Origin: an uncultured Syntrophobacterales bacterium
Lineage (GTDB): Bacteria; Desulfobacterota; Syntrophia; Syntrophales; UBA5619
DNA: 64,000 bases
Assembly: GCA_903928915.1 (NCBI GenBank)
Contig: CAIYSL010000040.1
Location: 1 to 64,000 of the forward strand
Reading direction: 5' to 3'
The position numbers and the translations under genes are program-made. Positions within the stretch are counted from its first letter, which is position 1. The number at the start of each line of letters is the position of its first letter. Under the pieces are notes generated by a model that worked only from the letters and a program-made list of their open reading frames with translations, made no database searches and had not been told where the DNA came from. This document shows positions 12,285 through 46,104 of this stretch, in pieces.

Positions 12285-12324
12285 GGAATGGTCACGGCCG
12301 GCGTGTTTTTTTCCCTGAATTCGC

Positions 12325-12353: not shown

Positions 12354-12400
12354 ACGCATCTACACAATAAAACACAAAAATTACAGGGGGTATGGGTTTA

Positions 12401-14173
12401 ATGGTTAACGATGATAACTTAATCTCAGATCAGCCGATCACTAACGCGGTCAACACCGAAAAGGATCCGGAAAGCTCCTCCGACGAAGGTGGCCAGGGCA
12501 AGGAGGAAAGCATCGGGTTCAGGGAACTGTATGAACAGAGCCTGCAGTCCGTGCAGATGGGAGGTGTGCTGACCGGCCGGATAGTCCAGATAAACGCCGA
12601 TACCATCATGGTCGATGTGGGATGGAAGACGGAAGGGTATATCCCTGCGCGGGAATTGCGGGATGATCAGGGGAATATCACCGTCAACGTGGGGGACGAG
12701 ATCGAGATACTCGTCGACCGCAGGGACCAAGACGGGAATCTGGTATTATCGCGAGACAAAGCCGCCAAGATCAAGATCTGGGATGACGTCAAAGTAGCCT
12801 GTGAACAGAATACCCCCGTGAAGGGCACTATCATCGAGCGGGTCAAGGGAGGCCTCTCCGTCGACATCGGCATACCGGCTTTTCTGCCCGGTTCCCAGGT
12901 GGATATCCGTCCGGTGCGCGATCTTGATCGGTATGTCGGCCAGTCCTTTCTGTTCAATGTCCTGAAGTACGATCGGAAGAGAAACAACGTGGTCCTCTCG
13001 AGGCGGACAATCCTGGAAAAGGAGCGTGAGGCGGAAAAACTGGACACCCTGAAGAACATCGAGGAGGGGAAGATCGTCGAGGGTATCATCAAGAACATCA
13101 CCGACTACGGTCTGTTCATCGATCTCGGCGGCATCGACGGCCTCCTGCACGTCACCGACATCTCCTGGGGCAGGATCACCCGTCCCTCCGACCATTTTTC
13201 CAAAGGCGAGAAGATCCGGGTAAAGGTGTTGTCCTTCGACCGCGAGAAGGAGCGTGTCGCTCTGGGGCTGAAGCAATTGACGGAGAATCCCTGGGAGACG
13301 ATCAAGGACAAATACCCCGTCCAGACGATCGTCGACGGACGGGTGGTCAACCTGACCGATTACGGCGTGTTCGTCGAGCTGGAGCCGGGGGTGGAGGGAC
13401 TCATCCACGTCTCCGAGATGTTCTGGACACGGGAAATCCGCCATCCCTCCAAAGTACTGTCGATCGATCAGCGGATCAACGTCATGATTCTCGACATCAA
13501 CACGGAGACGAAGCGAATATCCCTGGGCCTGAAACAGACCACGGCGAATCCCTGGGAGACGCTGAAACAGAAATATCCGGAGGGAAGCGTAATCAAGGGG
13601 TTGATACGGAACATCACAAATTTCGGTATCTTCGTGGGCGTGGAAGAGGGGATAGACGGCCTGATTCACATGTCCGATATTTCCTGGAAGCAACGGGTCA
13701 AGCACCCCTCCGAGATGTTCAAGAAGGGGCAGGAGATCGAAGTGATGGTCCTGAGCATCGATGTGGAGCATGAGAAGTTTTCTCTAGGCCTCAAACAGAT
13801 CGAAAAGAATCCCTGGGAGGAGCTGAGCGTCAAGTATCCTTCCGGTTCGGTCGTCTCGGGAAAAGTTACCAATATTACCGACTTCGGTATTTTTGTCGAG
13901 ATCGAAGAGGGGATCGAAGGGCTGGTGCACATCTCTGAACTGAGCTCCCGCAGGGTGAAATCGTCCGCGGAACTGTTCGCCGTCGGCGACAATGTGTCGG
14001 CCATCGTAAAGAACGTCGACCCAAAGAGCAGGAAGATCCGATTGAGCATCAAGGATTACGAAACGGGCAGCGATGGCAACCCGGTTCATCAGTATCTCAA
14101 CAACAAGGAAAATATCGGATCCAGCTTGAGCAAGGCCCTGGCCGACATCAAGATTGTGGATTCGGACGAATAG
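12401..14173 (+). CDS. rpsA: 30S ribosomal protein S1
   Basis: A 590-residue protein with six S1 OB-fold RNA-binding repeats, at about 30-100, 115-180, 200-270, 285-360, 370-445 and 455-530. Repeats 3-6 share the pattern TDYGxFVELxxGxEGLxHxSE. S1 helps recruit mRNA to the 30S subunit. The start was placed at the second ATG: the strong AGGGGG at 12385-12390 sits 10 bases before it but only 1 base before the in-frame ATG at 12392. The length is slightly above the E. coli protein (557). It lies downstream of cmk and upstream of sppA. Confidence 0.96.
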   Translation: MVNDDNLISDQPITNAVNTEKDPESSSDEGGQGKEESIGFRELYEQSLQSVQMGGVLTGRIVQINADTIMVDVGWKTEGYIPARELRDDQGNITVNVGDEIEILVDRRDQDGNLVLSRDKAAKIKIWDDVKVACEQNTPVKGTIIERVKGGLSVDIGIPAFLPGSQVDIRPVRDLDRYVGQSFLFNVLKYDRKRNNVVLSRRTILEKEREAEKLDTLKNIEEGKIVEGIIKNITDYGLFIDLGGIDGLLHVTDISWGRITRPSDHFSKGEKIRVKVLSFDREKERVALGLKQLTENPWETIKDKYPVQTIVDGRVVNLTDYGVFVELEPGVEGLIHVSEMFWTREIRHPSKVLSIDQRINVMILDINTETKRISLGLKQTTANPWETLKQKYPEGSVIKGLIRNITNFGIFVGVEEGIDGLIHMSDISWKQRVKHPSEMFKKGQEIEVMVLSIDVEHEKFSLGLKQIEKNPWEELSVKYPSGSVVSGKVTNITDFGIFVEIEEGIEGLVHISELSSRRVKSSAELFAVGDNVSAIVKNVDPKSRKIRLSIKDYETGSDGNPVHQYLNNKENIGSSLSKALADIKIVDSDE

Positions 14174-14190
14174 TCCGCTGAGATCAGCTC

Positions 14191-15078
14191 ATGCGAAGAC
14201 ACCCGATCGTCATAGGGATCGGCATACTCCTGGTTGTCGGGCTCGGTTTCTTTATCCTGGTCGTTAGCCTGAGCGTGTTCCGCACAGAGGGAAGCTCTTT
14301 CAGCCTTCGCGAGAAGGTCGGCGTCGTCGCGATCGAAGGGGTCATCCGCGACGGCAGCATGATCGTCGACCAGCTCGGGGAATTTGCCGACGATGACGCC
14401 ATTCGGGCGGTTGTTCTGCGGATCGACTCCCCGGGCGGGGGAGCGGCGGCCGCACAGGAGATCTACCAGGAAGTCAGCAGACTGCGAAAAAAGAAAAAGG
14501 TCGTTGCCTCCCTGGGATCCGTAGCGGCGTCTGGTGGATACCTGATCGCCACCGGCGCCGACAGGATCGTGGCCAATCCCGGAACGATCACCGGCAGTAT
14601 TTCTGCCGTGATGCACTTTGCAGACGTCCAAGAGCTGATGAAAAAGGTCGGGGTCCGCGCTTCAGTCGTGAAAAGCGGGAAATTCAAGGATATCGGCTCC
14701 CCGCTGCGCGACATGACGGCCGAAGAGCGGCAGCTGATCCAAGGCATCGTTGACGATATCTACGATCAGTTCGTCCGGACCATTGCGGAAAATCGAAAGC
14801 TCCCCCTCGACAATGTCGTGAAAATCGCCGATGGAAGAATTTTTTCCGGGCGGCAGGCACAGCAGCTGAAACTGGTTGATGAGCTGGGAGGGCTGCAGGA
14901 CGCAGTGCTGACCGCCGGCAGGTTGGCGGGTATCGAAGGGAAGCCGGGAATCGTCCCTGCGGCGAAGAAGAAAGCCGGCATCCTGCGGTACCTCTTGGAG
15001 AACATGACCTCCGTCGTTGTAGACGAGTTACGGAGGGGCACGAAAGAATTCATCGGGGCGCACTACCTTTTTCCCTGA
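14191..15078 (+). CDS. sppA: Signal peptide peptidase SppA, short form
   Basis: A 295-residue membrane-anchored serine protease that degrades cleaved signal peptides. One N-terminal helix (residues about 6-28) anchors it, with the catalytic domain outside. The nucleophile region is GSVAASGGYLIATGA and the general-base lysine is in VKSGKFKDIGSP, the Ser-Lys dyad of the SppA/S49 family. IDSPGGG forms the oxyanion region. This is the single-domain form found in most bacteria rather than the double-length E. coli form. It is 17 bases after rpsA and probably in the same transcript. Confidence 0.93.
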   Translation: MRRHPIVIGIGILLVVGLGFFILVVSLSVFRTEGSSFSLREKVGVVAIEGVIRDGSMIVDQLGEFADDDAIRAVVLRIDSPGGGAAAAQEIYQEVSRLRKKKKVVASLGSVAASGGYLIATGADRIVANPGTITGSISAVMHFADVQELMKKVGVRASVVKSGKFKDIGSPLRDMTAEERQLIQGIVDDIYDQFVRTIAENRKLPLDNVVKIADGRIFSGRQAQQLKLVDELGGLQDAVLTAGRLAGIEGKPGIVPAAKKKAGILRYLLENMTSVVVDELRRGTKEFIGAHYLFP

Positions 15079-15141
15079 TCAAGCGAGGCCGTGCCCGATC
15101 GGCCGCCGGGGGCGGGAATCGGAAGAGGGCAGAAGGAAGCA

Positions 15142-15909
15142 ATGATGACCTATCGCACGCTCCTCCTCACGCAGCGGGAAGGATATGCAGTCGTCACGAT
15201 GCACCGTCCCCGCGAAATGAACGCCCTTTCCCGGGAAATGCGCGGTGAACTGGAAGAGTGTTTCCTCCGCCTGTCCGCCGACAAGGGGGTGCGGGCCATC
15301 ATCCTCACGGGCGGGGATTACGTTTTTTCCGCAGGGCTGGATCTGAAAGAACTGTCGGCACTGGCCGATGCGGACATCGAGGATTTCTTCCGTTCCCTCA
15401 CGCGGCAGCTCAAGACGATCTATACGTGCGCAAAGCCCCTGATCGCGGCTGTGGGCGGCATCGCCCTCGGCGGAGGGTTCAACCTTGCCACCTTCTGCGA
15501 TCTGATCATCGCCTCGGAAAGCGCAATCTTCGGCCATCCCGAGCTGATGTTCGGCCTCAATCCGCTGTTCAACCCGTTGCAGCGAATAGTTGGGATAGCC
15601 AAGGCAAAGGAGCTCATCATGCTGGGGCAGCCGATTGGCGCCAGGGAGGCTCTGCGGATAGGCCTCGTCAATAAGGTCAGCCCTCCGGAAAAATTGATGC
15701 TCGATGCCGAGTCGATGGCCGGAGAGCTGGCGAAACGATCTCCCACGGCGCTGGAGGCGGTTAAACGGATCTCCGATCTGGTACCGCGCCTCGACCGGGC
15801 GGCCGCCCTCGACGTGGAGCAGGATGTCGAGACGCTCCTTTTTTCCAGTCAGGAACGGAAGGAGCACATGAAGGTCTTTATGGATAACCTGAGAAGCAGA
15901 AAAAAGTGA
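15142..15909 (+). CDS. Enoyl-CoA hydratase/isomerase (crotonase) family protein
   Basis: A 255-residue crotonase-fold enzyme acting on acyl-CoA substrates. The two oxyanion-hole segments are FSAGLDLKEL and GIALGGGFNLATFCDLI, and the helix with the usual catalytic position is GHPELMFGLNP. The reaction (hydratase, isomerase or other) cannot be fixed from this. The start is the ATG at 15142, with AAGGAAG 4 bases upstream; the frame stays open back to a GTG at 15091 with no ribosome-binding site. Beta-oxidation-type CoA chemistry fits a syntrophic anaerobe. It follows sppA on the same strand. Confidence 0.88.
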   Translation: MMTYRTLLLTQREGYAVVTMHRPREMNALSREMRGELEECFLRLSADKGVRAIILTGGDYVFSAGLDLKELSALADADIEDFFRSLTRQLKTIYTCAKPLIAAVGGIALGGGFNLATFCDLIIASESAIFGHPELMFGLNPLFNPLQRIVGIAKAKELIMLGQPIGAREALRIGLVNKVSPPEKLMLDAESMAGELAKRSPTALEAVKRISDLVPRLDRAAALDVEQDVETLLFSSQERKEHMKVFMDNLRSRKK

Positions 15910-33800: not shown

Positions 33801-34661
33801 GTTGGTGAGGCGTGAGAATAGCGGGAGGATTGCCGTTTCCTCCCGATGCCGGCCGGCGAGGAGTGCACAGACCTCGCGGATGTCCCGCTCCGTCGGCATG
33901 AAGATGAGCACGTCCCCCAAATCGCGCCGCTCGATCAGCTCGTCGACGACGCGGACCGCGGCCTCTACCGGGGTGATTTCCCCCTTCTCCTCGGCCCCCG
34001 GGTCGAGCGGCCGGTAGCGGACCTCGACGGGGTAGAGGCGGCCCGACACCTCGATGATCGGGGCCTCTGCGAAGGCCTGGGAGAACTTCTGGGTGTCGAT
34101 GGTCGCCGAGGTGATGATCAGATGCAGGTCGCGCCTCCGGTTCAGGAGGTCCCGCAGGATGCCGAGGATAAAATCGATGTTGAGACTCCGCTCGTGGGCC
34201 TCGTCGACGATGATCGTGTCATAGGCGCTGAGCAGGGGGTCGCGCTGGGCCTCCATCAGCAGGATGCCGTCGGTCATGATCTTGATGGTAGCTGCCCGCG
34301 GGGTGGCGTCGTCGAAACGAATCTTGTACCCCACGGAACGGCCGACCTCTTCGCCGAGCTCTTCAGCGATCCGGCGGGCGACGGTGGTCGCCGCGATCCG
34401 CCGGGGCTGGGTACAGCCGATCTGCCCCCGCAGCCCGCGGCCGGCCTCGATGCACATCTTCGGGATCTGGGTGGTCTTTCCGGAGCCAGTTTCCCCGGTT
34501 ATGACGAGGACGCGGTGCCGCCGGATCGCCTGTACGATGGCCTCCTTCCGTTCCAGGATCGGCAAGCCGGCGGGGTAGACGATCCTCGGCAGCTCTCGGC
34601 AGCGTCGCACGGTCTTTTTCTGCACGGGTGTGGTTTCGGACACGGTCAGTCTCACAGTCAA
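30822..34661 (-). CDS. hrpA: ATP-dependent RNA helicase, DEAH-box (HrpA)
   Basis: A 1279-residue DEAH helicase. Motif I is GETGSGKTTQIPKMC, Ia is TQPRRIAA, II is DEAH, III is SAT, IV-VI include ATNVAETSLTIPGI and QRKGRCGRV. The ratchet and OB-fold region follow, then the long DUF3418 C-terminal part typical of HrpA, which helps resolve stalled ribosomes. Length is normal. The start is TTG at 34661 or GTG 6 bases inside; neither has a clear ribosome-binding site. It is divergent from the GH57-GT5 gene with overlapping upstream regions. Confidence 0.94.
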   Translation of the reverse strand: MTVRLTVSETTPVQKKTVRRCRELPRIVYPAGLPILERKEAIVQAIRRHRVLVITGETGSGKTTQIPKMCIEAGRGLRGQIGCTQPRRIAATTVARRIAEELGEEVGRSVGYKIRFDDATPRAATIKIMTDGILLMEAQRDPLLSAYDTIIVDEAHERSLNIDFILGILRDLLNRRRDLHLIITSATIDTQKFSQAFAEAPIIEVSGRLYPVEVRYRPLDPGAEEKGEITPVEAAVRVVDELIERRDLGDVLIFMPTERDIREVCALLAGRHREETAILPLFSRLTNAEQQRVFRLLDRRKIVVATNVAETSLTIPGIRYVIDTGLARIAQYNPRSRTAGLPVRRISRSSADQRKGRCGRVQNGICIRLYDEEDYLARPLYTAPEILRANLAGVILRMLALNLGDIDSFPFIDRPTPKSVRDGIEILLEIGAIEPQEREPQDPARPWRLTERGRIMSRLPLDPRISRMILEARGEGCLPEVAVIAAALSIQDPRERPADKEAQADQAHARFKDPASDFSALLSLWRHSYENGDSPKTGGGLRRFCRDHFLSYRRMREWRDIHDQILALLAEQRFLPRHTGRSRPREAAGKEGAELYAALHRSILSGFLGQIAQKKEKNLYTATQGRQAMLFPGSGLFGRGGKWIVSAEMVETSRLFARTVANIDCGWLEKLGGGLCRHSYSNPRWEKNRGEVVASEQVTLFGLIIVAGRSVSFGRIDPAEAARIFIRSALVGGEVTRPLPFLAHNQSLIEKIAGLEEKVRRHDLLIGEEEMAQFYEQRLPPLSDIRSLQRLIRERGSDGFLRMTEEDLLVKPPDPEEIAQFPSTVAAGGWRLECVYRFEPGRPLDGVTLKIPVHAAPSLPAQSLDWAVPGLLREKVLALLRGLPKEYRKKLQPIAQTCETLLREMERQGPLPTALGRAVFRKFGIDIPADRWQMDGLEEHLRFRYAVVDEGDRELAAGRDIGVLRQEFGGEREPQAYAEARRRWEQSGLTGWDFGALPERVALTADARTGPVAFPGLCVAETDVAIVLFRSEAEARQSHRQGVRALVALRFPQELRHLHKALAPTGDLKLWAAAFGGAKALENAVAEKVMHDLFEADCRTAEAFHAHAEAVRPQILSRGHAILRMCTPLIRALYEVSSQISGQEAAQRGNKPVLAFLAGLREELTRLVPPDFLVRHPEERIGHIARYLRGLAVRAERGALHLEKILTRGAEVAEFVERVQVIVRNLSPDASEEKIREIEEFQWLIEEYKISLFAQELKTPVPVSRKRLDRKLREIDRML

Positions 34662-34715
34662 TACGGGAGCGCCATGGGATAATACTCATCGGGGCCGCGG
34701 ATGTCAAAGGATCGA

Positions 34716-34744
34716 TTGATTTTGGCGCTACAATCCCTTATAGT
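34716..34744 (+). promoter_or_regulatory. Promoter of the GH57-GT5 fusion gene
   Basis: TTGATT (34716-34721), 17 bases, TATAGT (34739-34744). The start would be near 34751, after the in-frame ATG at 34748 and before the better one at 34778, which fixes the start codon of the downstream gene. Confidence 0.65.
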
Positions 34745-34777
34745 GGCATGAAGGCCCTGCGACCCCTGAGGTGGATC

Positions 34778-37480
34778 ATGCCGCTCGTCACGTTTTACTT
34801 CCAGCTGCACCAGCCGTTCCGCCTCCATCCGGACCGGAACAAGTATCTCTGGGAAGAAAAGAACCGGGAGGTGTTCCTCAAAGTCGCCGAGAAGTGCTAC
34901 CTGCCGGCGACGCGGATGTTCACCGAGCTGATCTCAGCCTGGCCGGGATTCAAGGTCACCTTTGGGATGTCGGGAACCTTTCTGGAGCAGGCCGAGCTGT
35001 ACAAGCCGGAGGTGATCGCCGCGCTCCAAGAGCTTCATGCCGCGGGAAAGGAAAACAGCCAGGTCGAGTTTCTCGACGAGACCTACTACCACTCCCTGAC
35101 CAGCCTGTTCGAGGATCCGCACAAGACCGAGTTCCGGGAGCAGTCGTCCCTCCACCGGGAGAAGATGCGCAAGCTGTTCGGCATCTTCCCGACCTCGTAT
35201 CGGAACACGGAGCTGATGTACAACAACCATATCGCCGATGCGGTCGCCGACATGGGGTATCAATCGATCCTCTGCGAGAAACGGGACGACATGTTCACCG
35301 GCGAGGAGGGGGGGATCTCCCCCAACGCCGTTTTTCGGGCGCGCGACACGAACCTCATCGTCATCCCGCGCAACCGGGAGCTGAGCGACGACGTCGCCTA
35401 TCGCTTCCCCCATACGCCGATCAGGCCGGAACAGTATGCCGGCTACCTCGCCCTGATCGACGGCGAGGTCGTTCTGCTGGGGTACGACTTCGAGCACATC
35501 GGCGAGCACATCTGGAGCGAACGGGGAATATTTGAATTCTGGCGCGGGCTCCCGGAGGCGCTCGCCAGCCATCGCAACGTGGTCGCGGCCACGCCGACCG
35601 AAATCGCGCAGAGTTTCCGGGAGACCCTCTGCCCGGAGGTGAGCATCCACGGCCTTGCTACCTCCTCCTGGGCGGATGCCGGCCGGAACACCTTCGGATG
35701 GCTGGGAAACCCCACCCAGTACGAGCTGTTTCGGGATATCGAGCTGATGGAGAAGGGCGCCAAGCGCGCCGGAGGGGAGCTCCTCACCAAGTGGCGCCAC
35801 TTGACCACGTCGGACCATGTCTATTTCCTGCATGAGCGGGTCGGGGAGGATCATGCGGTACACTCCTATTTCAACCCCTACGACAACTCGATCGCCCGGC
35901 CGACCCATGTCCTGACGCGGAAGATCGATGACCTGGAGGTTGTCATCCGGCGCTTCGAAGTCCTCAAGAAGAGAGAGACCACCGCTATCCTGATCATCTC
36001 TCCGGAGACGGGGCGCCTTCCCGAGGACATGGGGGGGCTCGCCCGGTTCATCTCCGGAAAGAGCGGCGGACAGGGGGAGGTCGTCTCGGCCCTGTGCGAG
36101 GGGCTTACCGAACGGGGATACGACGTGCACCTGGCCATTCTCAACCTCAAGAAGCGGTTCCAGCGCGAATCGCAGATGAACGAGCTGCAGTGGCGGGAGG
36201 TGCGCTACCGGATCGACTCGGAGAAGATCTATCTCGTCAGCTCCGCCATCTTTGCCGACAACCTGAGCGCCTATGCCGGCGATCCGATCATGACGGCCGT
36301 GGAGTTCCAGCGCGAGATCGTCAACAACGTGATCAAGGTGGTTCGGGCGCGGAGCGAAGGAAAGCTGATCATCCACAGCCATGACTGGATGGCAGGGGGC
36401 GCGATCAGCGCCTACGCGAGTGCGACCGGCCTCCCGGTCCTCCATACGGTTCACAATGTGTTCACCGCCTGTCTCCCGCTCGACCAGCTCGGCGGGATCG
36501 GCCTCAAGAACATCTCGGACCGGCTCTACTTCCAGGAGAAGAACGGTCAGGCCTGCATCGACTGCCAGGCGACGGCGATCAAGAATGCGACGATGATCAA
36601 CTTCGTGGGGGAGCGGTTTCTGCGCGAGATCGTGGAAGATTATTTTCTCGACCGGGAATTGGTGCCTCCCAGCGTCCGCCAGGAGGTGAAGGAGAAGTAC
36701 CGCCACGACGCCGCGCGGGCAATCATCAACGCCCCTGCGTCCAGCATGTATCCGGAGAAATGCGAAGCGCTCGTGAGGAAATACGGCCCGGAGGACGATA
36801 TCCTGGAGGCAAAACGGGAGAATCTACTCGCCTTCCAGAACCGGACGGGGCTCAAGGTCAACCCCGATGCCCTGCTGTATTTCTGGCCTTCCCGGCTGGA
36901 CCCCTTCCAGAAGGGGGTGGAACTGCTCGAAACGATCCTCGGCCCGTTCGTCAAGACCCACCCCGATGTCCAGATCGCCATCGTCGCTGACGGGATCGGC
37001 AATGACCGGACCCATGTGGATCTCCTGGGGGGAATTGCCTGGGCCTCCGGGGGGCGGATCAGTTACCACCCCTTCGACGAGGGGCTTTCGCTTCTGGGGT
37101 ATGCGGCGGCGTGCGATGTGTTCGGGGCCTCGCTGTACGAACCCTGCGGGCAGATCGATCAGGTAGGCAACCTTTTCGGGGCGACGGCAACGAACCGCGA
37201 TACGGGAGGGTACCACGACAAGATCCGGGAGTTGCGGCTGAAGGCGAACGGCGCCCCGCAAGACGAGGGGAACGGCTTTCTGTTTCGGGATTATGATGCC
37301 GGCGGACTCTGGTATGCCCTCGAAAAGAGTCTGGCTTTCCATCGGCTTCCCGGGGCGGCGCGGGAGAAACAGCTCCGGCGGATCATGCGGGAGGCGCGGG
37401 AGAAGTACAGCCTCGGCCACATGATCGCCGAGTACATCCGTATCTACGAAAAGCTCAACGGCGGCAGGCCGCTGGTCTGA
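34778..37480 (+). CDS. GH57 glycoside hydrolase - GT5 glycogen synthase fusion
   Basis: A 900-residue two-domain protein. Residues 1-390 are a GH57 domain: HQP at 11-13, nucleophile E145 in RNTELMYNN and acid D237 in GYDFEHIGEH. Residues about 400-890 are a GT5 glycogen/starch synthase: KSGGQGEV carries the ADP-sugar K-x-G-G element, IHSHDWMAG and HTVHNVFT follow, and the C-terminal loop is LYEPCGQIDQVGNLFG. GH57 enzymes cleave or rearrange alpha-glucans; GT5 extends them. The start has GAGGTG 5 bases upstream and lies after the promoter. With glgP nearby it suggests a glycogen store. Confidence 0.9.
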   Translation: MPLVTFYFQLHQPFRLHPDRNKYLWEEKNREVFLKVAEKCYLPATRMFTELISAWPGFKVTFGMSGTFLEQAELYKPEVIAALQELHAAGKENSQVEFLDETYYHSLTSLFEDPHKTEFREQSSLHREKMRKLFGIFPTSYRNTELMYNNHIADAVADMGYQSILCEKRDDMFTGEEGGISPNAVFRARDTNLIVIPRNRELSDDVAYRFPHTPIRPEQYAGYLALIDGEVVLLGYDFEHIGEHIWSERGIFEFWRGLPEALASHRNVVAATPTEIAQSFRETLCPEVSIHGLATSSWADAGRNTFGWLGNPTQYELFRDIELMEKGAKRAGGELLTKWRHLTTSDHVYFLHERVGEDHAVHSYFNPYDNSIARPTHVLTRKIDDLEVVIRRFEVLKKRETTAILIISPETGRLPEDMGGLARFISGKSGGQGEVVSALCEGLTERGYDVHLAILNLKKRFQRESQMNELQWREVRYRIDSEKIYLVSSAIFADNLSAYAGDPIMTAVEFQREIVNNVIKVVRARSEGKLIIHSHDWMAGGAISAYASATGLPVLHTVHNVFTACLPLDQLGGIGLKNISDRLYFQEKNGQACIDCQATAIKNATMINFVGERFLREIVEDYFLDRELVPPSVRQEVKEKYRHDAARAIINAPASSMYPEKCEALVRKYGPEDDILEAKRENLLAFQNRTGLKVNPDALLYFWPSRLDPFQKGVELLETILGPFVKTHPDVQIAIVADGIGNDRTHVDLLGGIAWASGGRISYHPFDEGLSLLGYAAACDVFGASLYEPCGQIDQVGNLFGATATNRDTGGYHDKIRELRLKANGAPQDEGNGFLFRDYDAGGLWYALEKSLAFHRLPGAAREKQLRRIMREAREKYSLGHMIAEYIRIYEKLNGGRPLV

Positions 37481-37495: not shown

Positions 37496-38821
37496 TCATC
37501 CCCGAATACTCTTCTGCACGCGCTCGGCAATCCCGCGGACACGGCGCATCGCTTCCTGCTCGTCGATTGTCAGCAAGTGGCGGTCCCGCATGACGACCTT
37601 TCCGTTGATCAGCACCGTATCCACGTCCGCACCGCCGACGGTGTAGACGAGGTGCGAGTACTCGTCGTACAGCGGCGTCAGGTGGGGCTTGTTCATGTCG
37701 ATGATGCAGACATCCGCCTTCTTCCCGGCTTCCAGCGTGCCGATCAGGCGCTCGAGCCCCAGGACCTTGGCGCCGTCGCAGGTCGCCATCCTGAGGACCG
37801 TTCGCGCCGACATGACGGTGGGGTCGAGGCGGGCGGATTTTTCCAGTTTCGCGGCGGTGTCCATTTCCTGGAACATGTCGAGATTGTTGTTGCTGGCACA
37901 GCCGTCGGTTCCCAGGCCGACGGTGACTCCCAGCCGCAGCATGGCGGAAATCGGGGCCACGCCGGAGGCCAGTTTCATATTGCTTTCGGGATTGTGGACG
38001 ACCTTGCAGCCGTGATCGGCGAAGACCCGGATGTCTTCTTCGTCCATGACCACACAGTGGAAGGCGAAGAATCGTTCGTCGAGCATCCCCAGTTCCTTGA
38101 GGAACGTCGTAGCGCGCTTCCCGAATTTTTCCTTCAGCTGTCTCGCCTCGGCCGCATTTTCGAGGAGATGGGTGGACAGGGGCACCCGGTACCGGTCCGC
38201 AAGCTCCTTGGCGGATTTGAGGAGTTCCGGGGAACAGGTGTACAGGGAATGGGGCTCTACCATGATGTTGACCAGCGGATCGTCGGTCCATTTCCGAATC
38301 AGCCTTTCCGTATAGGCAAGACCTTCCGCGGGTGTCGGGAAGTTGGGGGAGGGGAAATCGAAGAGGACTTCGCCCAGCAGGCAGCGCATTCCGGACTGTT
38401 TCGCCACCCGGGCCGTTTCCTCCTCGAAGATGTACATGTCGGAAAAGGTGGTCGTTCCCGACTTGATCATTTCAGCACAGGCGAGCATGCTCCCCCAGTA
38501 GGCAAGTTCGGGGTCCACGTTGCGGGCCTCGGCGGGGAAGATGTAGTTGTTGAGCCAGTCCATCAATTCCATGTCGTCGGCGATGCCCCGAAAGCAGGTC
38601 ATGGCCGCATGGGTGTGGGCATTGATGAGGCCCGGCATGATGAGGCACCCCGGAACGTCGATCGTCTCCCGCCCCCGGTAGGCGGAAAGGATCTCCTCGC
38701 TCGGTCCCAGCGCGGTGATGGAATCGCCGGTGATGGCAAGCGCGCCGGAGGGGATGATCGTGTCCCTCTCATCCAGTGAAACGACCGTTCCACCGGTAAT
38801 CAGTATGTCCGTTTCCCGCAT
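37496..38821 (-). CDS. Amidohydrolase, MTA/SAH deaminase family (copy 1)
   Basis: A 441-residue metal-dependent hydrolase. Metal ligands are HTH in INAHTHAAM, H in LSTHLLENAAEA, H in FAFHCVVMDEED, and D in GLGTDGCASNNNLDMF. These fit MtaD, which deaminates the adenine of 5'-methylthioadenosine or S-adenosylhomocysteine; other aromatic deaminases share the fold, so the substrate is inferred. AAAGGAGG precedes the start. It is convergent with the glucan fusion gene and divergent from the ParA-like gene. A paralogue lies at 44508-45893. Confidence 0.87.
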   Translation of the reverse strand: MRETDILITGGTVVSLDERDTIIPSGALAITGDSITALGPSEEILSAYRGRETIDVPGCLIMPGLINAHTHAAMTCFRGIADDMELMDWLNNYIFPAEARNVDPELAYWGSMLACAEMIKSGTTTFSDMYIFEEETARVAKQSGMRCLLGEVLFDFPSPNFPTPAEGLAYTERLIRKWTDDPLVNIMVEPHSLYTCSPELLKSAKELADRYRVPLSTHLLENAAEARQLKEKFGKRATTFLKELGMLDERFFAFHCVVMDEEDIRVFADHGCKVVHNPESNMKLASGVAPISAMLRLGVTVGLGTDGCASNNNLDMFQEMDTAAKLEKSARLDPTVMSARTVLRMATCDGAKVLGLERLIGTLEAGKKADVCIIDMNKPHLTPLYDEYSHLVYTVGGADVDTVLINGKVVMRDRHLLTIDEQEAMRRVRGIAERVQKSIRG

Positions 38822-38909
38822 GCTGCCTCCTTTGCGCCCTGTCGTGCTCAGCCCTTAACATAACTGCTGGGTACTGTTCAACTGAATTTCGGACCGGCCG
38901 GAATTCTGC

Positions 38910-38937
38910 TTGCATTTTCGTCGCGAATTCCTATACG
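38910..38937 (+). promoter_or_regulatory. Possible promoter of the ParA-HAMP-dehydrogenase-SAHH-like cluster
   Basis: TTGCAT (38910-38915), 16 bases, TATACG (38932-38937), in the 246-base divergent gap before the ParA-like gene. Quality is moderate. No later promoter is obvious before the next three genes, which follow with gaps of 2, 7 and 41 bases. Confidence 0.4.
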
Positions 38938-39067
38938 GTCACTTCGGGGCGGGAAACGATTCGCGCACCCTGTCAACCGCACACGAGCCCCGACGATCCG
39001 AGTCGGGGAGACGCGTCTGGGGCGGGCGGCTGCCCGTGCTGCATGATCCGGGAGAGGCGTTGAGCGC

Positions 39068-39823
39068 ATGGCCAAGATCGTTGCCGTTCATTCATTCCGG
39101 GGAGGAACGGGCAAGTCGAACACCACAGCCAATCTGGCGTGCCTGCTGGCGCAGAAGGGGCACCGGGTAGGCATTATCGACACGGATATTCAGTCTCCGG
39201 GGATCCATGTCCTTTTCAGCCTCGACCCGAACGACTGCCCCTGTGCCTTGAACGATTACCTCTGGGGGAGATGCGAAATCAGCCAGACCGCATATGAGGT
39301 AACCCCGACAGCCGACCCTGCAAGCTCGGGGAAGCTTTTCCTCATCCCGTCCAGTATCCGCACCGGAGACATTGCCCGGGTCATCCATTACGGCTATGAC
39401 GTCAATCTGCTGAAAGAGGGGTGCCAGCGTCTGATCCGGGAGCTGCCGCTGGACTACCTGTTCATCGATACCCATCCCGGTCTCAACGAGGAGACTCTGC
39501 TTTCCATCGCCATAGCCGATATGCTGCTCATCATCCTCCGCCCGGACCACCAGGACTACCAGGGGACGGCGGTGACCGTGGAGGTCGGCCGGCATCTCGA
39601 GGTCCCCCGGATGAGCCTCCTCCTCAACAAGGTCCCGGCATGTTTTTCGCGCGAGGCGCTGACTGACCAGGTGGCGCACACGTACGGTTGCGAAGTGGTC
39701 GGTGTGCTGCCCCATGCCGAGGAGATGATGACCCTTGCCAGTTCCGGGATATTTGTCGTCCGCTATCCCGATCATCACGTCAGCAGGGAGCTGCGGACCG
39801 TCACGGCCATGATCGAGGCATAG
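39068..39823 (+). CDS. ParA/MinD-family ATPase with variant Walker A
   Basis: A 251-residue deviant-Walker ATPase. The P-loop is SFRGGTGKSNTTANL: the position that normally carries the signature lysine of ParA/MinD (K-G-G-x-G-K) is R11. The catalytic lysine K16 is present, as are switch I (IIDTDIQSPG), switch II (LFIDTHPG) and the LNK nucleotide-base motif (LLLNKVP). No plasmid ParB or MinE partner is nearby. The next gene starts 2 bases later and encodes a HAMP membrane protein, so this ATPase is probably recruited to or signals with a membrane receptor, not to DNA. Confidence 0.85.
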   Translation: MAKIVAVHSFRGGTGKSNTTANLACLLAQKGHRVGIIDTDIQSPGIHVLFSLDPNDCPCALNDYLWGRCEISQTAYEVTPTADPASSGKLFLIPSSIRTGDIARVIHYGYDVNLLKEGCQRLIRELPLDYLFIDTHPGLNEETLLSIAIADMLLIILRPDHQDYQGTAVTVEVGRHLEVPRMSLLLNKVPACFSREALTDQVAHTYGCEVVGVLPHAEEMMTLASSGIFVVRYPDHHVSRELRTVTAMIEA

Positions 39824-39825
39824 GC

Positions 39826-40854
39826 ATGGATGCGCGCAGAATCATCCTCACCGGGTGTGGATGGGGGGCGGTCTTTGGGATCCTCAACTGTGCATCCAAT
39901 GTGTTTCTCCTGCCGTCGGCACCGTTTATCTCGCTGCGTCCGCAGATTGCCCTTCCCATGGTCGTAGGAATAACCGTTCATCCCGTGGCCGGTTTTCTCG
40001 TCGGGTTCGTGGGAAACATCATCGGGGACGGGCTGTCGGGTTTTGGATTGTGGAAGTTCTGGAACTGGCATCTGGCCAACGGTCTGATGGGATTTCTTCC
40101 CGGTCTGGTCAGGTATGGGGGAAGTAACAGGATCAGTACCGTTCGTGATTTCGGCGTCCTGGAGATGAGCGTTGTCCTGGCGAGCGGCGCGTCAGTCGCC
40201 TTTGCCGTCTTGCTGGATGTCCTGTTCCTCGAGTTCATGCGTTTTCCTTCCTCGTTTCATTCCTGGATACTGCCGGCGTTTCTCACCGACGCGGTGAACG
40301 GGTTCGTCCTGGTGCCCGTCCTCCTGCTTCCGGCAGGACGATTATTGATTACCCTGGAGACACGGACGATCCTGCTCATCACGGCTCTGCTGGTAGTTGC
40401 CGTACTCAGCACGGCCGGCGCAATAACCTGGTCTGTTTGGGACGATCTCAGCTCTCCCGCCGCAACGATAGAAAATTTCTACATCGCCGGCATCGTTTCG
40501 GTGATTCTGCTTGTGCTCGGATTCATTGCCGCCCTCGGATTTGTGCGGAAGATCACCGATCCTATCGGAGAACTCACCCGGGCCGCAGAGGCTGTGGAAA
40601 ACGGGGACTATGATCTCGGGCATCTTGGCCACGTCTCGGCGCGACAGGACGAGCTGGGCAGGCTCTCCCGTGTTCTCCAGGGAATGGCAGGCCAGGTCAG
40701 GAAACGGGAGGAGGCGCTGCGCAGTCAGGTCCAGGAGCTGCGGATACGGATCGATCCGCAGCGGCGGGAGCGGGAAGTGGCAGCGATCGTGGAAACGGAT
40801 TACTTTCAACAGCTGAAGAAAAAGGCCAAAGAGCTGCGCCAGGGCATGAGTTGA
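39826..40854 (+). CDS. Polytopic membrane protein with HAMP domain and no output domain
   Basis: A 342-residue protein. Residues 1-180 hold about five hydrophobic helices with a pattern (LPSAPFISLRPQIALPMVVG, GFLVGFVGNIIGDGLSG) resembling S-components of ECF vitamin transporters. A further helix pair brackets a short outside loop (about 190-240). A HAMP linker follows (FVRKITDPIGELTRAAEAVENGDY), then a coiled coil ending in IVETDYFQQLKKKAKELR. No kinase, cyclase or methyl-accepting region exists. It would sense a small molecule and pass a conformational signal to a partner, most simply the ParA-like ATPase encoded just upstream; this is inference. Confidence 0.8.
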   Translation: MDARRIILTGCGWGAVFGILNCASNVFLLPSAPFISLRPQIALPMVVGITVHPVAGFLVGFVGNIIGDGLSGFGLWKFWNWHLANGLMGFLPGLVRYGGSNRISTVRDFGVLEMSVVLASGASVAFAVLLDVLFLEFMRFPSSFHSWILPAFLTDAVNGFVLVPVLLLPAGRLLITLETRTILLITALLVVAVLSTAGAITWSVWDDLSSPAATIENFYIAGIVSVILLVLGFIAALGFVRKITDPIGELTRAAEAVENGDYDLGHLGHVSARQDELGRLSRVLQGMAGQVRKREEALRSQVQELRIRIDPQRREREVAAIVETDYFQQLKKKAKELRQGMS

Positions 40855-40861
40855 GGACGCG

Positions 40862-41833
40862 ATGAACGGGATGTCAGCGGCGGTGTTTGGAGGCGCACTC
40901 GCGTACGTGCGGGATTACCCCGTGCCGGAGGTGAAGCCGGGCTGGGCGAGGATCCGGGTGCAGGTGGCCGGGATCTGTAAGACCGATATGGAAATCATGA
41001 AGGGATATTTGGGCTTCACCGGGATCCTGGGTCATGAATTCGTCGGCGTGGTCGATCGGTGCGAAGATCGGGCATTGATCGGCAAGCGCGTGGTCGGCGA
41101 CATCAACGCCGCCTGCGGGCACTGTGCATGGTGCGCCCGGGGATTGGGTCGTCATTGCCCGCAGCGGACTACCCTGGGGATCGCGAATCTCAACGGCTGC
41201 ATGGCTGAATTCTGTATCCTGCCGCGGGAGAACCTGCTGGTCGTTCCCGAGCAGATGCCCGCTGAACGGGCGGTCCTGACGGAACCTCTTGCAGCGGCCT
41301 GCGAGATCCTGGAGCAGCTGAGCATTGAGAAGACGGACCGCATCGTCGTTCTCGGCGACGGCCGGCTCGGGGTGCTCTGTGCCTGGGCCCTCGCAACGGC
41401 GGCGCCCGATGTGACGATCATCGGCCATCACCCCGCGAAGCTCTCCCTTGCCCGCTGGCGGGGAATAACGACCCTCCTCGGTGACGACCAGGTCATGCCC
41501 GGAGCGGACATTGTCGTTGAGGCAACCGGCACCAGCCAGGGGATCAGCCGGGCGATGAAACTCTGCCGCCCCCGGGGGACCATCGTGCTCAAATCGACCG
41601 TTGCGATCCCCGGGGACGTGAATCTTGCCCCCGTCGTCATCAACGAGCAGACGATTGTCGGGTCCCGGTGCGGCAGGTTCCCCGCTGCGCTCGCGATGAT
41701 GGGGAGTTTCCCCGACATGCCCCTGGACAGGATCATAACCGGCCGTTTTGCCTTGGAACGCGTGGAAGAGGCATTTGCCCGCGCCCAACAGAAAGATGCC
41801 CTGAAGGTGCTTCTGGACATCGCATCCCGATGA
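40862..41833 (+). CDS. Zinc-dependent alcohol dehydrogenase family (MDR) protein
   Basis: A 323-residue medium-chain dehydrogenase/reductase. The catalytic zinc site is CKTDMEIMKGY with GHEFVGVV. The four-cysteine structural zinc lobe is CGHCAWCARGLGRHC. The nucleotide-binding glycine motif is VVLGDGRLGVLCAW, and the strand VVEATGTSQG follows. It should oxidise an alcohol or reduce a carbonyl with NAD(P); the substrate is unknown. It lies 7 bases after the HAMP gene with GAGGACGCG before the ATG, so it is part of the cluster. Confidence 0.87.
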   Translation: MNGMSAAVFGGALAYVRDYPVPEVKPGWARIRVQVAGICKTDMEIMKGYLGFTGILGHEFVGVVDRCEDRALIGKRVVGDINAACGHCAWCARGLGRHCPQRTTLGIANLNGCMAEFCILPRENLLVVPEQMPAERAVLTEPLAAACEILEQLSIEKTDRIVVLGDGRLGVLCAWALATAAPDVTIIGHHPAKLSLARWRGITTLLGDDQVMPGADIVVEATGTSQGISRAMKLCRPRGTIVLKSTVAIPGDVNLAPVVINEQTIVGSRCGRFPAALAMMGSFPDMPLDRIITGRFALERVEEAFARAQQKDALKVLLDIASR

Positions 41834-41874
41834 GTCCGGAAGACCGGAGACGAACCGATGCGTGGTGATGGCAG

Positions 41875-44412
41875 ATGAAACGTGATGTCAGCGGTGTGAT
41901 CAGGTCCTTGATCCGGGATGAGGCGGCACGTGCGGAAGGCGCGGCATCGGAACGGGATCCACCCGCCGAGATGACGTCTCTTGGCGTTCCGTTGGTGCGC
42001 GGGGATGATCGCCACCGTATCATCGACCTGACAAACGTCCATGCAATTCGCAACCTGCACACCTTTGTCCGGCTCCTCATCAATGAGGTCGTGGAGCAGT
42101 GCGGGTTCGGGAGCGGCGACATCATGGTGCGCAGAAAGGTCGACGCCAACCTGACCCCGGAACTCTGCGCCCTGGGACTCGACTGGGTAATGATCTACGC
42201 CCGGATCGACGCCGCCGAGAGTCTGCCCTTTTACCATTGCCACTTCGGCAACTGCATGCAGGTGATTTTCCGAGCCCTGCAGACCCAGCGCTGGGGAGGC
42301 ATGCTGTTCCCCGATTTCTTCGGCATCCCCGGGTCCTCTGCCGAAGCGGCGCCGCCGGCGCTCCTGTTCCCCTTCCATCTGCAGGAAACGGACAACCGAC
42401 AGGGGCAGTATTTCCTGGTCGAATACGGCAGGTCGGGTCGTTACCTGCGCATCACCATCGAGGATGCGGCTTCGTCGCGCCTGCAGCTGAGGCACATCCC
42501 GCACCGCGTCGTCGACCAGCGCGTGCGGCAGTCATACCTTGCCGATGTGCACCTGATCGCCGAGCAGATTCACCAGGGGATTCTCCGGGAATGCATGAAT
42601 TCCCGGGCTGAGTATACCCTCATGCCCGCACAGCAGGGCGGACTCTTCGCCCATCTGCGCAGCTGCGGCCTGGACAATCTCCAGTCGCTGCACTTCACCT
42701 GGCCGACCGATGACATCCAGGTGATGCTGCTCGAAAAACAGCAGTCACCCGAATCCCCGAGCGAGTCCTTTGCGACCCTCGTCAAAGAGATGCAGCTGAT
42801 CGAAGATCCTCTGGTGCTGTCCTGCCTCGCCCGGGGCGACATTGTCGAGATGATCGCGGGGAGGGTGCATGTTTTTATCGACCTGTCCCGTTACGGTGCA
42901 TCGCTGAACGTGAGCTTCAACGAGCGCCGGAGCGTGCTCTCCCTGGAGGACTATCTCGGGCAGATGCCCGCCCTCGAACAGGCCGTGCAGTCGCGAAAAG
43001 CGGCACTCAGTGGGGTGCGGCTGTTTATGATCCATCACATCACCGCCGAAGTGATCGGCCTCCTCCGGGCCTTCCAGACGGCCGGATGCGAAACCGTGAC
43101 GACGTTCTTCGTCAAGTACGGCGGGATCATTCCCGATGCCTATCTGGAGACGCTGATGTCGCTTCCCCCCGAGGCATTTCGGTTTTACAGCCTGCAGCGG
43201 CTCGAGTCCCGGGAGCTTCTGTCCGGCAAATTCTCCTTCTCGCGGTTCTTCTCCCCCGTGACGGGTTTGGAAGAAGTTGAACAGGCCGTCTTTCTCGGCT
43301 GTCGTGATATTTTCGGAGCGATGCGTCTCGCCGCCGGCCATCTGTTCTTTACAGAGGTCGGCAAGGCCCGGGAGGCGGGAGAACAGCTCCTGCTGGTGGA
43401 GGATGGCGGTTACCTGGCCCCGCTGATCAACCGGTTCGCACAGGAAGGACGCACCGTGCGGGAAGTTCTTTCCCAGTTTCACGTCCCGCCTCCCGCCTGT
43501 GCGGAAGAGATGCTTTTTTCCGACTGGGTCGGCCATGTCTTCCTGGGGGGGATCGAGCACACACGAAACGGGTATGATTACAATTCCGAAGTCAGGGACG
43601 AATTCGGCCAATTGCGCTTTCCCGTGGCCAGCATAGCCGTCTCCCGGCTCAAGCGAGGGCCGGAAGCGCGGGAATGCGCGGTTTCGATCCTCAACGCTGC
43701 CGAAAACATCCTGCATCGGTTGGGTGTCCTGCTTTCGAAGCGCAATGTGCTCGTCCTCGGGTCCTCCGGCGCCATCGGAGGTTACCTGAAGCGCGATCTG
43801 GTTCAGCGTCTCGATTCGGGCCGTCTCTTCGGCGTGGACATCGCCGCATCCGGAGATGCGGGAGAGAAAATCGTCGAGGCCCGGACCCTGGAAGACCTGG
43901 GGAGCACGGAACTTGCGGAAATCGACGTAGTGATCGGCGTTATCGGCAGGTCGATCCTCAGGAAGGAACACCTCGACCAGATGATCCTGCACGGCCGTAG
44001 AAAAGCGCTGTATTTCATCAGCGGTTCAACCAAGACGGTCGAATTCTCCGCTGTCGAGGCGTACCTGCAGTCCCTGCGCGAGCAAGGCACCCCGCGGATC
44101 GGCGACACTCCCGTAACGGTCGCGTTCAGCGCCCTGCGCGATCTCCAGACCGGGATACTGCAGGGGTACCGGGTCGATCTGGCCCTCGGCGATGATCGGA
44201 CAAGAGACAAGACCTTGTACCTGCTGGGCGAACTGATGCCGATAAATTTTCTGTATTACGGTATCCCCCGGGAAATCGTCGACGAGGTCATGGCGCAGCT
44301 GTTTACCCTTTCCTGCGGTGTCGTGCGACGGCAGCGATCGACGGACAGGCTCCCTCCGCAGCTGCTGGCTGTCGATCAGAATATCGATGCGGATGCGAAT
44401 CCGCTCCGGTAG
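41875..44412 (+). CDS. Large unassigned protein with S-adenosylhomocysteine-hydrolase-like C-terminal half
   Basis: An 845-residue soluble protein I do not recognise as a whole. Residues 1-370 match nothing I can name. From about 370, GVRLFMIHHITAEVIGLLR, LLVEDGGYL, GGIEHTRNGYD, LRFPVASIAVSRLK and NVLVLGSSGAIGGYLKRDL follow the order of S-adenosylhomocysteine hydrolase (substrate lobe, DDGGDL, EETTTG, NVNDSVTKSK, NAD-binding GYGxVGKG). The NAD-loop glycines are kept, but the catalytic lysine/aspartate pair (VTKSKFDN) is replaced by AVSRLKRG. It may therefore bind NAD and an adenosyl compound without the classical reaction. It ends the four-gene cluster. Confidence 0.7.
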   Translation: MKRDVSGVIRSLIRDEAARAEGAASERDPPAEMTSLGVPLVRGDDRHRIIDLTNVHAIRNLHTFVRLLINEVVEQCGFGSGDIMVRRKVDANLTPELCALGLDWVMIYARIDAAESLPFYHCHFGNCMQVIFRALQTQRWGGMLFPDFFGIPGSSAEAAPPALLFPFHLQETDNRQGQYFLVEYGRSGRYLRITIEDAASSRLQLRHIPHRVVDQRVRQSYLADVHLIAEQIHQGILRECMNSRAEYTLMPAQQGGLFAHLRSCGLDNLQSLHFTWPTDDIQVMLLEKQQSPESPSESFATLVKEMQLIEDPLVLSCLARGDIVEMIAGRVHVFIDLSRYGASLNVSFNERRSVLSLEDYLGQMPALEQAVQSRKAALSGVRLFMIHHITAEVIGLLRAFQTAGCETVTTFFVKYGGIIPDAYLETLMSLPPEAFRFYSLQRLESRELLSGKFSFSRFFSPVTGLEEVEQAVFLGCRDIFGAMRLAAGHLFFTEVGKAREAGEQLLLVEDGGYLAPLINRFAQEGRTVREVLSQFHVPPPACAEEMLFSDWVGHVFLGGIEHTRNGYDYNSEVRDEFGQLRFPVASIAVSRLKRGPEARECAVSILNAAENILHRLGVLLSKRNVLVLGSSGAIGGYLKRDLVQRLDSGRLFGVDIAASGDAGEKIVEARTLEDLGSTELAEIDVVIGVIGRSILRKEHLDQMILHGRRKALYFISGSTKTVEFSAVEAYLQSLREQGTPRIGDTPVTVAFSALRDLQTGILQGYRVDLALGDDRTRDKTLYLLGELMPINFLYYGIPREIVDEVMAQLFTLSCGVVRRQRSTDRLPPQLLAVDQNIDADANPLR

Positions 44413-44507
44413 CAGCCCCGACGGGATTACCGGCGAAGGGTGGAAAGGCCGCAGCGCGACTCGCCACGACTGAATCCCACGGCGGTCGCATTCAGCGGAC
44501 CGTAACC

Positions 44508-45893
44508 TCAGGCAGGAGTGGCCGGCGCGCAGCTGGATCTGCGGCGCGGCCGGGAGTAGCCGGCGCCGACGATATCCGCTGCGATGGAGCGCACCGCAGC
44601 CATGGCGGAGTCGACGTCGACGGTGAGAAGCATGCGGTTCCGCATGACGATCCGGCCATTGATGATGCTGGTCGTCACATCGCTGCCCGCCGCGGCATAC
44701 ACGAGCTGGGAAAAGGGGTGGTACAGGGGCGTCAAGTGCGGTTTTCCCAAGTCCAGGATGATGATGTCGGCGCTTTTCCCCGGGACGATGGAGCCGATCC
44801 CCTCGGCCATACCCAGCACCCTCGCACCGCCGATCGTGGCCATTTCCACGACCCTCTCGGCAGGCAGGACGGTGGGGTCGGCAGCGAACACCTTGTGGAG
44901 CTTCGCACACATCCCCATCTCCCCGAACAGGTCGAGGTTGTTGTTGCTGGCGCAGCCGTCGGTTCCGAGACCCACGTCGATCCCCCGGGAGAGCATGGCC
45001 GGGACAGGGGCGACGCCGGCGCCGAGCTTCATGTTGCTCTCCGGATCGTGGGCCACTTTGACATTGCGCGCCGCCAGGACGTCGAGTTCGTCCTCATCCA
45101 GCCAGATACAGTGGGCGGCGACAGTCCCTGCGTCGAGGAGGTCGAGATCGCGCAGATGGTGGACGGGCTTCTTGCCGTACCGCTCCCGCAGGAGGGTGAT
45201 CTCGTCGCGGGTCTCGGCGAGGTGGATCTGGAAAGGGATCCGCGCCTCCCGGGTGACACGCTTGATCGTCCGGAGGGTCTCCGGCGAGCAGGTGTAGGGG
45301 GAATGGCAGACCAGGGCAGGGGTCACGAGCGCCGAATGCCCTTGCCAGCGGCCGACGAATCGCTCCGCCAGTTCCCGGTGGCGGGAGGTGTCGGGCTGGT
45401 CGGGTGTCGGGAAATCGATGAACCCCTGGGCCACGATCCCCCGCATCCCGCAGTCGATCGCCGCGCGGGCGACTGCGCCCTCAAAAAAATAGCCGTCGCA
45501 GAACGTGGTCGTCCCGGAGAGGATCATTTCGGCGATTGCCAGCGTGGTCGCCGCATACACGGTCTGCCGGTTGACGAAGCGGCCCTCCACGGGAAAGATG
45601 GTTTCGTTGAGCCAGCGCATCAGCGGGAGATCGTCGGCCAACCCCCGAAAGAGCACCATCGGAAGGTGGGTGTGGGTATTGACGAGGCCGGGCATGATCA
45701 GCGAGCCGGTTGCGTCGACGACCTCGCGGGCTACAGGGGTGTACCCCGCGGGCAGGGATTGCCTCTCGACGAAGAGGATCCTGCCGCCGCGGATGCCGAT
45801 GCAGGGGTTTGTGATGATATCCCCCGGGGCCGCCATGGTGAGCAGGGTCCCGCCGGTGATGAGGATGTCGAGCTCCTGATCGTCGCGGTTCAT
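44508..45893 (-). CDS. Amidohydrolase, MTA/SAH deaminase family (copy 2)
   Basis: A 461-residue paralogue of the enzyme at 37496-38821. Ligands are HTH in VNTHTHLPMVLFRG, H in FQIHLAETRDE, H in VAAHCIWLDEDELD and D in GLGTDGCASNNNLDLF. The same MtaD-like role is likely, again with uncertain substrate. The start is placed at the ATG at 45893: the open frame continues to a GTG at 45974, but that lies within the spacer of the tRNA-Leu promoter and adds low-complexity residues. It is convergent with the SAHH-like gene. Confidence 0.86.
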   Translation of the reverse strand: MNRDDQELDILITGGTLLTMAAPGDIITNPCIGIRGGRILFVERQSLPAGYTPVAREVVDATGSLIMPGLVNTHTHLPMVLFRGLADDLPLMRWLNETIFPVEGRFVNRQTVYAATTLAIAEMILSGTTTFCDGYFFEGAVARAAIDCGMRGIVAQGFIDFPTPDQPDTSRHRELAERFVGRWQGHSALVTPALVCHSPYTCSPETLRTIKRVTREARIPFQIHLAETRDEITLLRERYGKKPVHHLRDLDLLDAGTVAAHCIWLDEDELDVLAARNVKVAHDPESNMKLGAGVAPVPAMLSRGIDVGLGTDGCASNNNLDLFGEMGMCAKLHKVFAADPTVLPAERVVEMATIGGARVLGMAEGIGSIVPGKSADIIILDLGKPHLTPLYHPFSQLVYAAAGSDVTTSIINGRIVMRNRMLLTVDVDSAMAAVRSIAADIVGAGYSRPRRRSSCAPATPA

Positions 45894-45967
45894 CGCGGCA
45901 GGGGCCTGCGGCAGGGCGGGTGAAGCGCGGCTGAGCAGCGGCGAAAACGACGCAGGGAACGAACTCC

Positions 45968-45996
45968 TTGACACGGTGCGGCAGAACGCATATAGA
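45968..45996 (+). promoter_or_regulatory. Promoter of tRNA-Leu
   Basis: TTGACA (45968-45973), exactly 17 bases, TATAGA (45991-45996). The start would be near 46003, 14 bases before the mature tRNA 5' end. Confidence 0.75.
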
Positions 45997-46016: not shown

Positions 46017-46104
46017 GCCTGGGTGGCGGAATTGGTAGACGCAAGGGACTTAAAATCCCTCGGTCCTCGCGGCTGTGCGGGTTCGATTCCCGCCCCAGGC
46101 ACCA
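46017..46104 (+). tRNA. tRNA-Leu (anticodon TAA)
   Basis: An 88-base class II tRNA. The acceptor arm GCCTGGG pairs with CCCAGGC, the anticodon stem is AGGGA/TCCCT with loop CTTAAAA and anticodon TAA, a long variable arm (GGTCCTCGCGGCTGT region) is present, and CCA is encoded. It is transcribed alone, between its own promoter and terminator. Confidence 0.96.

Follow-up and report, generated by a model that had tools for sequence, protein, structure and literature searches.

In the 64,000-nucleotide stretch of DNA analysed here (the window; start of contig CAIYSL010000040.1, from an uncultured Syntrophobacterales bacterium), four forward genes encode a MinD/ParA-type ATPase (B), a membrane receptor (C), a zinc medium-chain dehydrogenase/reductase (MDR; D) and an 845-residue protein (E), flanked on each side by a reverse-strand gene for a deaminase-like amidohydrolase. 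Our comparisons indicate with near certainty that B-C-(D)-E is a conserved unit, and very probably that E founds a new family of the S-adenosylhomocysteine hydrolase (SAHH) superfamily. A check of the open reading frames agreed with the original prediction in layout and spacing, the gaps between B and C, C and D, and D and E being 2, 7 and 41 bases. The longest reading frame of C, from 39688, would overlap B; its relatives agree with the ATG at 39826.

37496-38821, reverse: first flanking deaminase (Pfam Amidohydro_1)
39068-39823, forward: B, MinD/ParA-type ATPase, 251 residues (Pfam ParA, AAA_31, CbiA)
39826-40854, forward: C, membrane receptor, 342 residues (Pfam ECF-ribofla_trS, HAMP)
40862-41833, forward: D, zinc MDR dehydrogenase, 323 residues (Pfam ADH_N, Glu_dehyd_C)
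41875-44412, forward: E, 845 residues, founder of the putative new family (no Pfam or NCBIfam match above cut-off)
44508-45974, reverse: second flanking deaminase (Pfam Amidohydro_1)

Conservation and distribution of the gene block

E was present in 8 of 61 genomes, comprising the genome of the window and 60 relatives. All six other loci on intact contigs, which belong to the same order-level group, kept the order B-C-D-E at 49-74% identity with differing outer neighbours; in a seventh relative (G020) the contig breaks off inside E. When 84,980 species genomes were scanned, 50 loci were returned, some being identical places and every one titled as a metagenome-assembled genome. With the window counted, 19 loci carry B-C-(D)-E, in Desulfobacterota, Bipolaricaulota, Acidobacteriota, Verrucomicrobiota, Kiritimatiellota, Lentisphaerota and Bacteroidota, and the system as a whole is spread over about eight phyla, in uncultured genomes only. 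Because the block recurs in seven or more phyla, the cluster is not due to chance. It had been proposed beforehand that homologues lying apart in other genomes would mark the cluster as coincidental; they were found to adjoin one another across many phyla.

C stands beside B in 19 of 19 B loci, and the only C that lacks a neighbouring B is that of L056, at the end of a contig. Among 297 genomes of the same phylum, 7 carry B (E value at most 1e-70) and 11 carry E, each of the 7 being among the 11; a naive hypergeometric calculation, which ignores genome kinship and linkage, gives 9e-12 for this overlap. For B, C and E, the pairwise distances correlated with one another at 0.91-0.97, part of which shared descent alone could explain. 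No E was found on plasmids. A search with PADLOC gave no match for E, C or D and a weak P-loop match for B, and a role in phage defence was rejected on this basis. Nothing informative came from promoter and terminator scans.

The E tree separates clade I, in which 19 of 20 members are accompanied by B-C, from clade II, which comprises Planctomycetota and Spirochaetota together with one row from Desulfobacteraceae and two that are unclassified. In 16 of 24 clade II loci, E lies directly behind a larger MDR of approximately 470-500 residues, and this same larger MDR likewise precedes E in G150, a genome of the window's phylum that is outside the tree. The clade I exception (L031, Acidobacteriota) has E amid partner-switching genes that replace B-C: a histidine-kinase-type ATPase, a Cache-HAMP-SpoIIE phosphatase and a STAS protein, with a purine permease next to E and an MDR. 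Items of this neighbourhood lie at 7470-9892 and 12309-15428 of that locus.

Protein E and the SAHH superfamily

E matches no family in Pfam or NCBIfam above its cut-off, and the window protein gave no match to the SAHH family PF05221 up to an E value of 10, while 7 of the 44 rows of the E alignment match PF05221 weakly (best 4.9e-5). The AlphaFold2 model, made from the 44 sequences, has a pLDDT of 88.5 and a pTM of 0.80. When it was compared with solved structures by Foldseek, the best 50 matches shown were all SAHH or SAHH-like at about 16% identity, including SAHH 3x2f (E value 1.7e-13) and 5tov (TM-score 0.72 of the target). Profile comparison gave an E value of 3e-7 against the SAHH of the same genome and, with hhalign, 2.1e-11 against the family alignment; when E was searched by sequence against solved structures, only chance or Rossmann-level matches came back. 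The SAHH-like C-terminus that had been proposed for E is borne out by these data.

41875-42999, forward: N-terminal domain, residues 1-375; fold well predicted, no solved relative
43000-44409, forward: SAHH-fold domain, residues 376-845 (Foldseek, hhalign, PF05221 in 7 of 44)
43036-43050, forward: HxTxE, residues 388-392, equivalent to SAHH H55/T57/E59; conserved in 44/44
43399-43413, forward: EDGGY, residues 509-513, D510 equivalent to SAHH D131; conserved in 44/44
43651-43665, forward: K593, equivalent to SAHH K186, with E597 at or next to the place of D190; conserved in 44/44
44020-44034, forward: SGSTK, residues 716-720, at the SAHH H301 loop, with Ser718 for the histidine; conserved in 44/44

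About 42 positions are invariant across the 44 sequences, which come from several phyla; the motifs EHTxNG, SGSTKxxEF and PxNFxxxG are also kept in all of them, and the NAD glycine motif in at least 43. Residues 376-845 share with SAHH and S-inosylhomocysteine hydrolase (PF05221) the fold, the NAD motif, HxTxE and the equivalents of His55, Asp131 and Lys186, but differ in their low identity, in residues at three SAHH sites (Ser for H301, Val or Ile for H353, His for E156) and in the extra 375-residue N-terminus. The latter, modelled alone, reached a pLDDT of 88 and a pTM of 0.83, and no solved fold matched it in Foldseek below an E value of 0.001 (best 0.037, TM-score about 0.1). It is the less conserved half of the protein, with three invariant positions.

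The genome that contains the window encodes a canonical SAHH elsewhere, as do 18 of the 20 genomes with E that were tested, and the idea that E is an ordinary SAHH filling a gap was rejected accordingly. Because the second catalytic histidine is replaced by an invariant serine and canonical SAHH is present elsewhere, E is best regarded as a distinct family and not as an SAHH. The HxTxQ(E) signature of SAHH touches the nucleobase (PMC10978960). In AgmF, the NAD-dependent nucleoside dehydratase of angustmycin A biosynthesis, which belongs to the SAHH family, H56, D129, K184 and H299 are essential (PMC8599513). Judged by these published residues and not by the AgmF sequence, E resembles AgmF as an SAHH-superfamily enzyme with an altered reaction that keeps the equivalents of H56, D129 and K184; unlike AgmF, E lacks H299 and has another gene context. 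From its conserved residues, E is probably an active NAD-dependent enzyme acting on a nucleoside-like substrate.

The B ATPase and the C receptor

39098-39118, forward: B P-loop, RGGTGKS, with Arg for the usual signature Lys
39868-40326, forward: C sensor, like the energy-coupling factor (ECF) riboflavin S-component (PF07155; E value 2.7e-11; 44.2 bits, cut-off 26.7)
40540-40701, forward: C HAMP (PF00672; E value 2.1e-8; 34.8 bits, cut-off 25)
40675-40851, forward: C tail, a coil with V.xI.ETDYF..LK.KA..LR, candidate docking site for B (tail hidden Markov model; overlaps the end of HAMP)

B matches Pfam ParA at 62.4 bits (cut-off 27.1); against the NCBIfam partition model ParA_partition it scores 52 bits, with a cut-off of 180. 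Its relatives are 47-74% identical over 19 aligned rows, with R11 and K16 invariant, and every one of them has RGG instead of KGG in the P-loop. C was originally described as a HAMP protein without an output domain, which holds (none was recognised by Pfam) and can now be extended, its sensor being assigned to an ECF S-component-like domain. A sensor of the PF07155 type is also found in the C protein of L036. A hydrophobic peak at residues 222-240 precedes the HAMP, and the aligned clade I relatives of C carry a HAMP-type region with a signalling coil.

Within the scanned loci, a profile built from the 60 C-terminal residues of C matched C proteins of clade I and HAMP/coil proteins next to B-family ATPases, and no others. 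The matches outside clade I are from Deinococcus (two), Nostoc C057 and Rhizobium plasmids, where the tail is attached to other sensors (Cache-HAMP, other HAMP); the tail was not found near B in the plasmid loci L077, L078 and L080. The simplest reading of this distribution is that the tail is a candidate docking place for B. Signalling from C to B appears plausible, given the constant pairing of the two genes and their covarying divergence.

B is also 40-59% identical to MinD/ParA proteins on plasmids of Deinococcus, Nostoc, Pseudanabaena, Kovacikia, Rhizobium and Streptomyces, with which it shares HSxRGGTGKS. Some of these loci resemble B-C in a further respect, since in Deinococcus, Nostoc C057 and Rhizobium the neighbouring HAMP/coil proteins bear the same tail. 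They differ from B-C-D-E in their cargo: the loci examined hold STAS, SpoIIE, glycogen or RiPP genes, and E and D are absent. Two modules can be seen among L075-L080, one with an AGE epimerase, STAS, GlgX and a SpoIIE phosphatase (Deinococcus, Streptomyces, partly Nostoc NIES-3756) and one with RiPP/NHLP bacteriocin genes (Nostoc C057, Pseudanabaena). In the Deinococcus locus L075, a diverged second ParA-like protein with the P-loop MRGTGKS (9389-10156) stands behind the HAMP-tail protein; this locus therefore holds two ATPases and two HAMP receptors.

Dehydrogenase D, the flanking deaminases and other neighbours

D has the ADH_N domain and zinc ligands of a zinc MDR of the Tdh/polyol type; C39, H58-E59 and C85/C88/C91/C99 are invariant over seven aligned rows, and the protein falls below every listed NCBIfam cut-off. 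An MDR is present in 33 of 51 E loci and is of two distinct kinds. E-MDR coupling thus recurs with either kind, and D is not obligatory. D is unlinked but present in the genomes of L032, L033, L036 and G327. A fixed neighbourhood of D was searched for in D-only genomes and none emerged.

The flanking proteins, 47% identical to each other, appear from their sequences to be TRZ/ATZ-type amidohydrolases resembling methylthioadenosine (MTA), S-adenosylhomocysteine (SAH) and 5'-deoxyadenosine deaminases. They score 297 and 310 bits against the bifunctional MTA/SAH deaminase model (cut-off 779) and 475 and 471 bits against their best NCBIfam model (cut-off 609). Both are kept only in L018 and L025 (the same places as L012 and L011), two loci of the same family, so that the earlier view of the deaminases as fixed parts of the system had to be given up; they are probably not obligatory and reflect mostly local synteny. 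A hint of association was retained from two other loci: in L036 (Bacteroidota) a divergently oriented MtaD-type amidohydrolase adjoins B, and in L117 a relative of D has a deaminase on one side and a PNP-type phosphorylase on the other. Together with the purine permease of L031, these deaminases point weakly to nucleoside metabolism, which fits HxTxE. The earlier proposal that the locus deals with a nucleoside or adenosyl compound has accordingly gained some support, from the 44/44 conservation of that motif and from L036, L031 and L117.

Upstream of the block, at 34628-37480 of the window, is a gene for a 950-residue protein in which a GH57 glycosidase is fused to a starch-synthase-like glycosyltransferase; it is kept in L018 and L025. 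A tRNA-Leu (taa) gene at 46017-46104, just past the second deaminase, is a possible integration site. In six loci a cupin gene (PF06172; Cupin_5, DUF985), whose product has a signal-/lipoprotein-like or leader-like N-terminus, stands behind E:

L033, 8375-8971: Cupin_5
L037, 12809-13420: Cupin_5
L038, 12040-12600: Cupin_5
L112, 5786-6382: Cupin_5
L113, 6043-6876: Cupin_5
L114, 1440-2033: Cupin_5

The E genes of Leptospirales (L028, L029, L030 and L044) are preceded by genes for an uncharacterised 600-residue protein, unmatched in Pfam, and for a PrmA-like methyltransferase. In L110 (6862-10831), from the window's phylum, E comes straight after a UDP-glucose/GDP-mannose dehydrogenase gene.

Discussion

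In this study, we describe a gene block whose parts each come from a known superfamily and for which we found no earlier account as a set in the open-access, open-licence literature, in line with the original prediction; a description elsewhere cannot be excluded. The reading that we favour, tentatively and at somewhat less than an even chance for the whole chain, is that of a ligand-controlled nucleoside-modifying system. The sensor of C would bind a small ligand, perhaps vitamin- or nucleoside-like, and the state of the cytoplasmic tail would change. The variant ATPase B may dock on this tail, switch between ATP and ADP states and thereby control the activity or the location of E. With NAD, E would oxidise a hydroxyl group on the sugar of a substrate of the adenine-nucleoside type and would next transform the activated sugar. 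The MDR (D, or the larger MDR in other phyla) might act on the ketone or alcohol either ahead of this step or following it.

Several observations weigh against this chain. B-C is absent from all of clade II, and therefore E does not need B-C there. Ser718, which replaces the catalytic His301 of SAHH, is present in 44/44 E sequences (the local alignment near 718 being approximate), and Val or Ile797 occupies the place of the adenine-site His353 in 43/44; because of these two replacements, the SAHH reaction cannot be assumed for E. At a threshold of 1e-70, D is absent from G240, G286 and G314. The wider D family is common without E, occurring in 59 of 297 genomes, and D was rejected as a strict marker of E for that reason.

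A coincidental neighbourhood of unrelated genes, which the patchy distribution among relatives (8/61 genomes) might suggest, is highly improbable, since the order is the same in many phyla, B is confined within the phylum to E-bearing genomes, and the distances covary. For B-C-E it is already refuted; for D only obligatory status is at issue. Another explanation takes E for a regulatory pseudo-enzyme of SAHH fold that binds NAD and nucleotide ligands and acts through contacts of its N-terminal domain, with B-C and the MDR as partners. Mammalian AHCYL1 (IRBIT), a regulatory pseudo-enzyme with the SAHH fold, provides the model. The N-terminal extension on an SAHH-like domain, the loss of the second catalytic histidine and the human SAHH-like structures 3gvp and 3mtg among the Foldseek matches are all consistent with this explanation. 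Nevertheless, we consider it unlikely, as the numerous invariant positions, which include the His, Asp and Lys equivalents and the new motifs EHTxNG and SGSTKxxEF, are what would be expected of an active enzyme, and the N-terminal half is the less conserved one.

The block might alternatively be a metabolic operon without signalling, with C as a vitamin S-component, B as an energiser or chaperone, and D and E in the catabolism or salvage of the import. C matches the riboflavin S-component family of ECF vitamin transporters, three EcfT homologues are encoded elsewhere in the genome, and some loci have purine-salvage neighbours. Unlike those transporters, however, C bears a HAMP-type region and a signalling coil, no EcfA or EcfT was recognised among the adjacent genes, and Cache-HAMP and other HAMP proteins encoded next to B-family ATPases bear this tail too, which makes such an operon rather improbable. 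Finally, B could position the receptor and the enzyme in the cell instead of switching activity. ParA-type positioning of receptors is known from PpfA/TlpT, which acts on cytoplasmic chemoreceptors, and from ParC/ParP; like these, B-C pairs a ParA-like ATPase with a receptor, and B, a member of the ParA/MinD family, always lies next to a membrane coiled-coil protein. The differences are considerable, as the receptor is an ECF-S/HAMP membrane protein without a kinase or MCP domain, the signature Lys of Walker A is Arg in all aligned relatives, and the adjacent genes, where B has the HAMP receptor, the MDR and E as neighbours, hold no recognised ParB-like or chemotaxis protein. We therefore regard a positioning role as quite unlikely too.

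Returning to the ligand-controlled system, a broader proposal, possible but doubtful at present, is that the locus exemplifies a new class of bacterial transmembrane signalling, in which vitamin-type S-component folds (elsewhere Cache or other sensors) serve as HAMP receptors that pass their signal directly through the coil tail to a MinD/ParA-like ATPase; in this locus the ATPase would control a new NAD-dependent nucleoside enzyme. That enzyme, E, might produce or remove a messenger or cofactor derived from a nucleoside.

In summary, E appears to define a new enzyme family tied to a receptor-ATPase pair, and the shared tail offers a concrete candidate route from a sensor to a ParA-type ATPase. 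If this link is true, the MinD/ParA ATPases would extend from positioning to transmembrane signalling in many phyla, and a function would be gained for an enzyme of uncultured Syntrophales, Planctomycetota and Spirochaetota.

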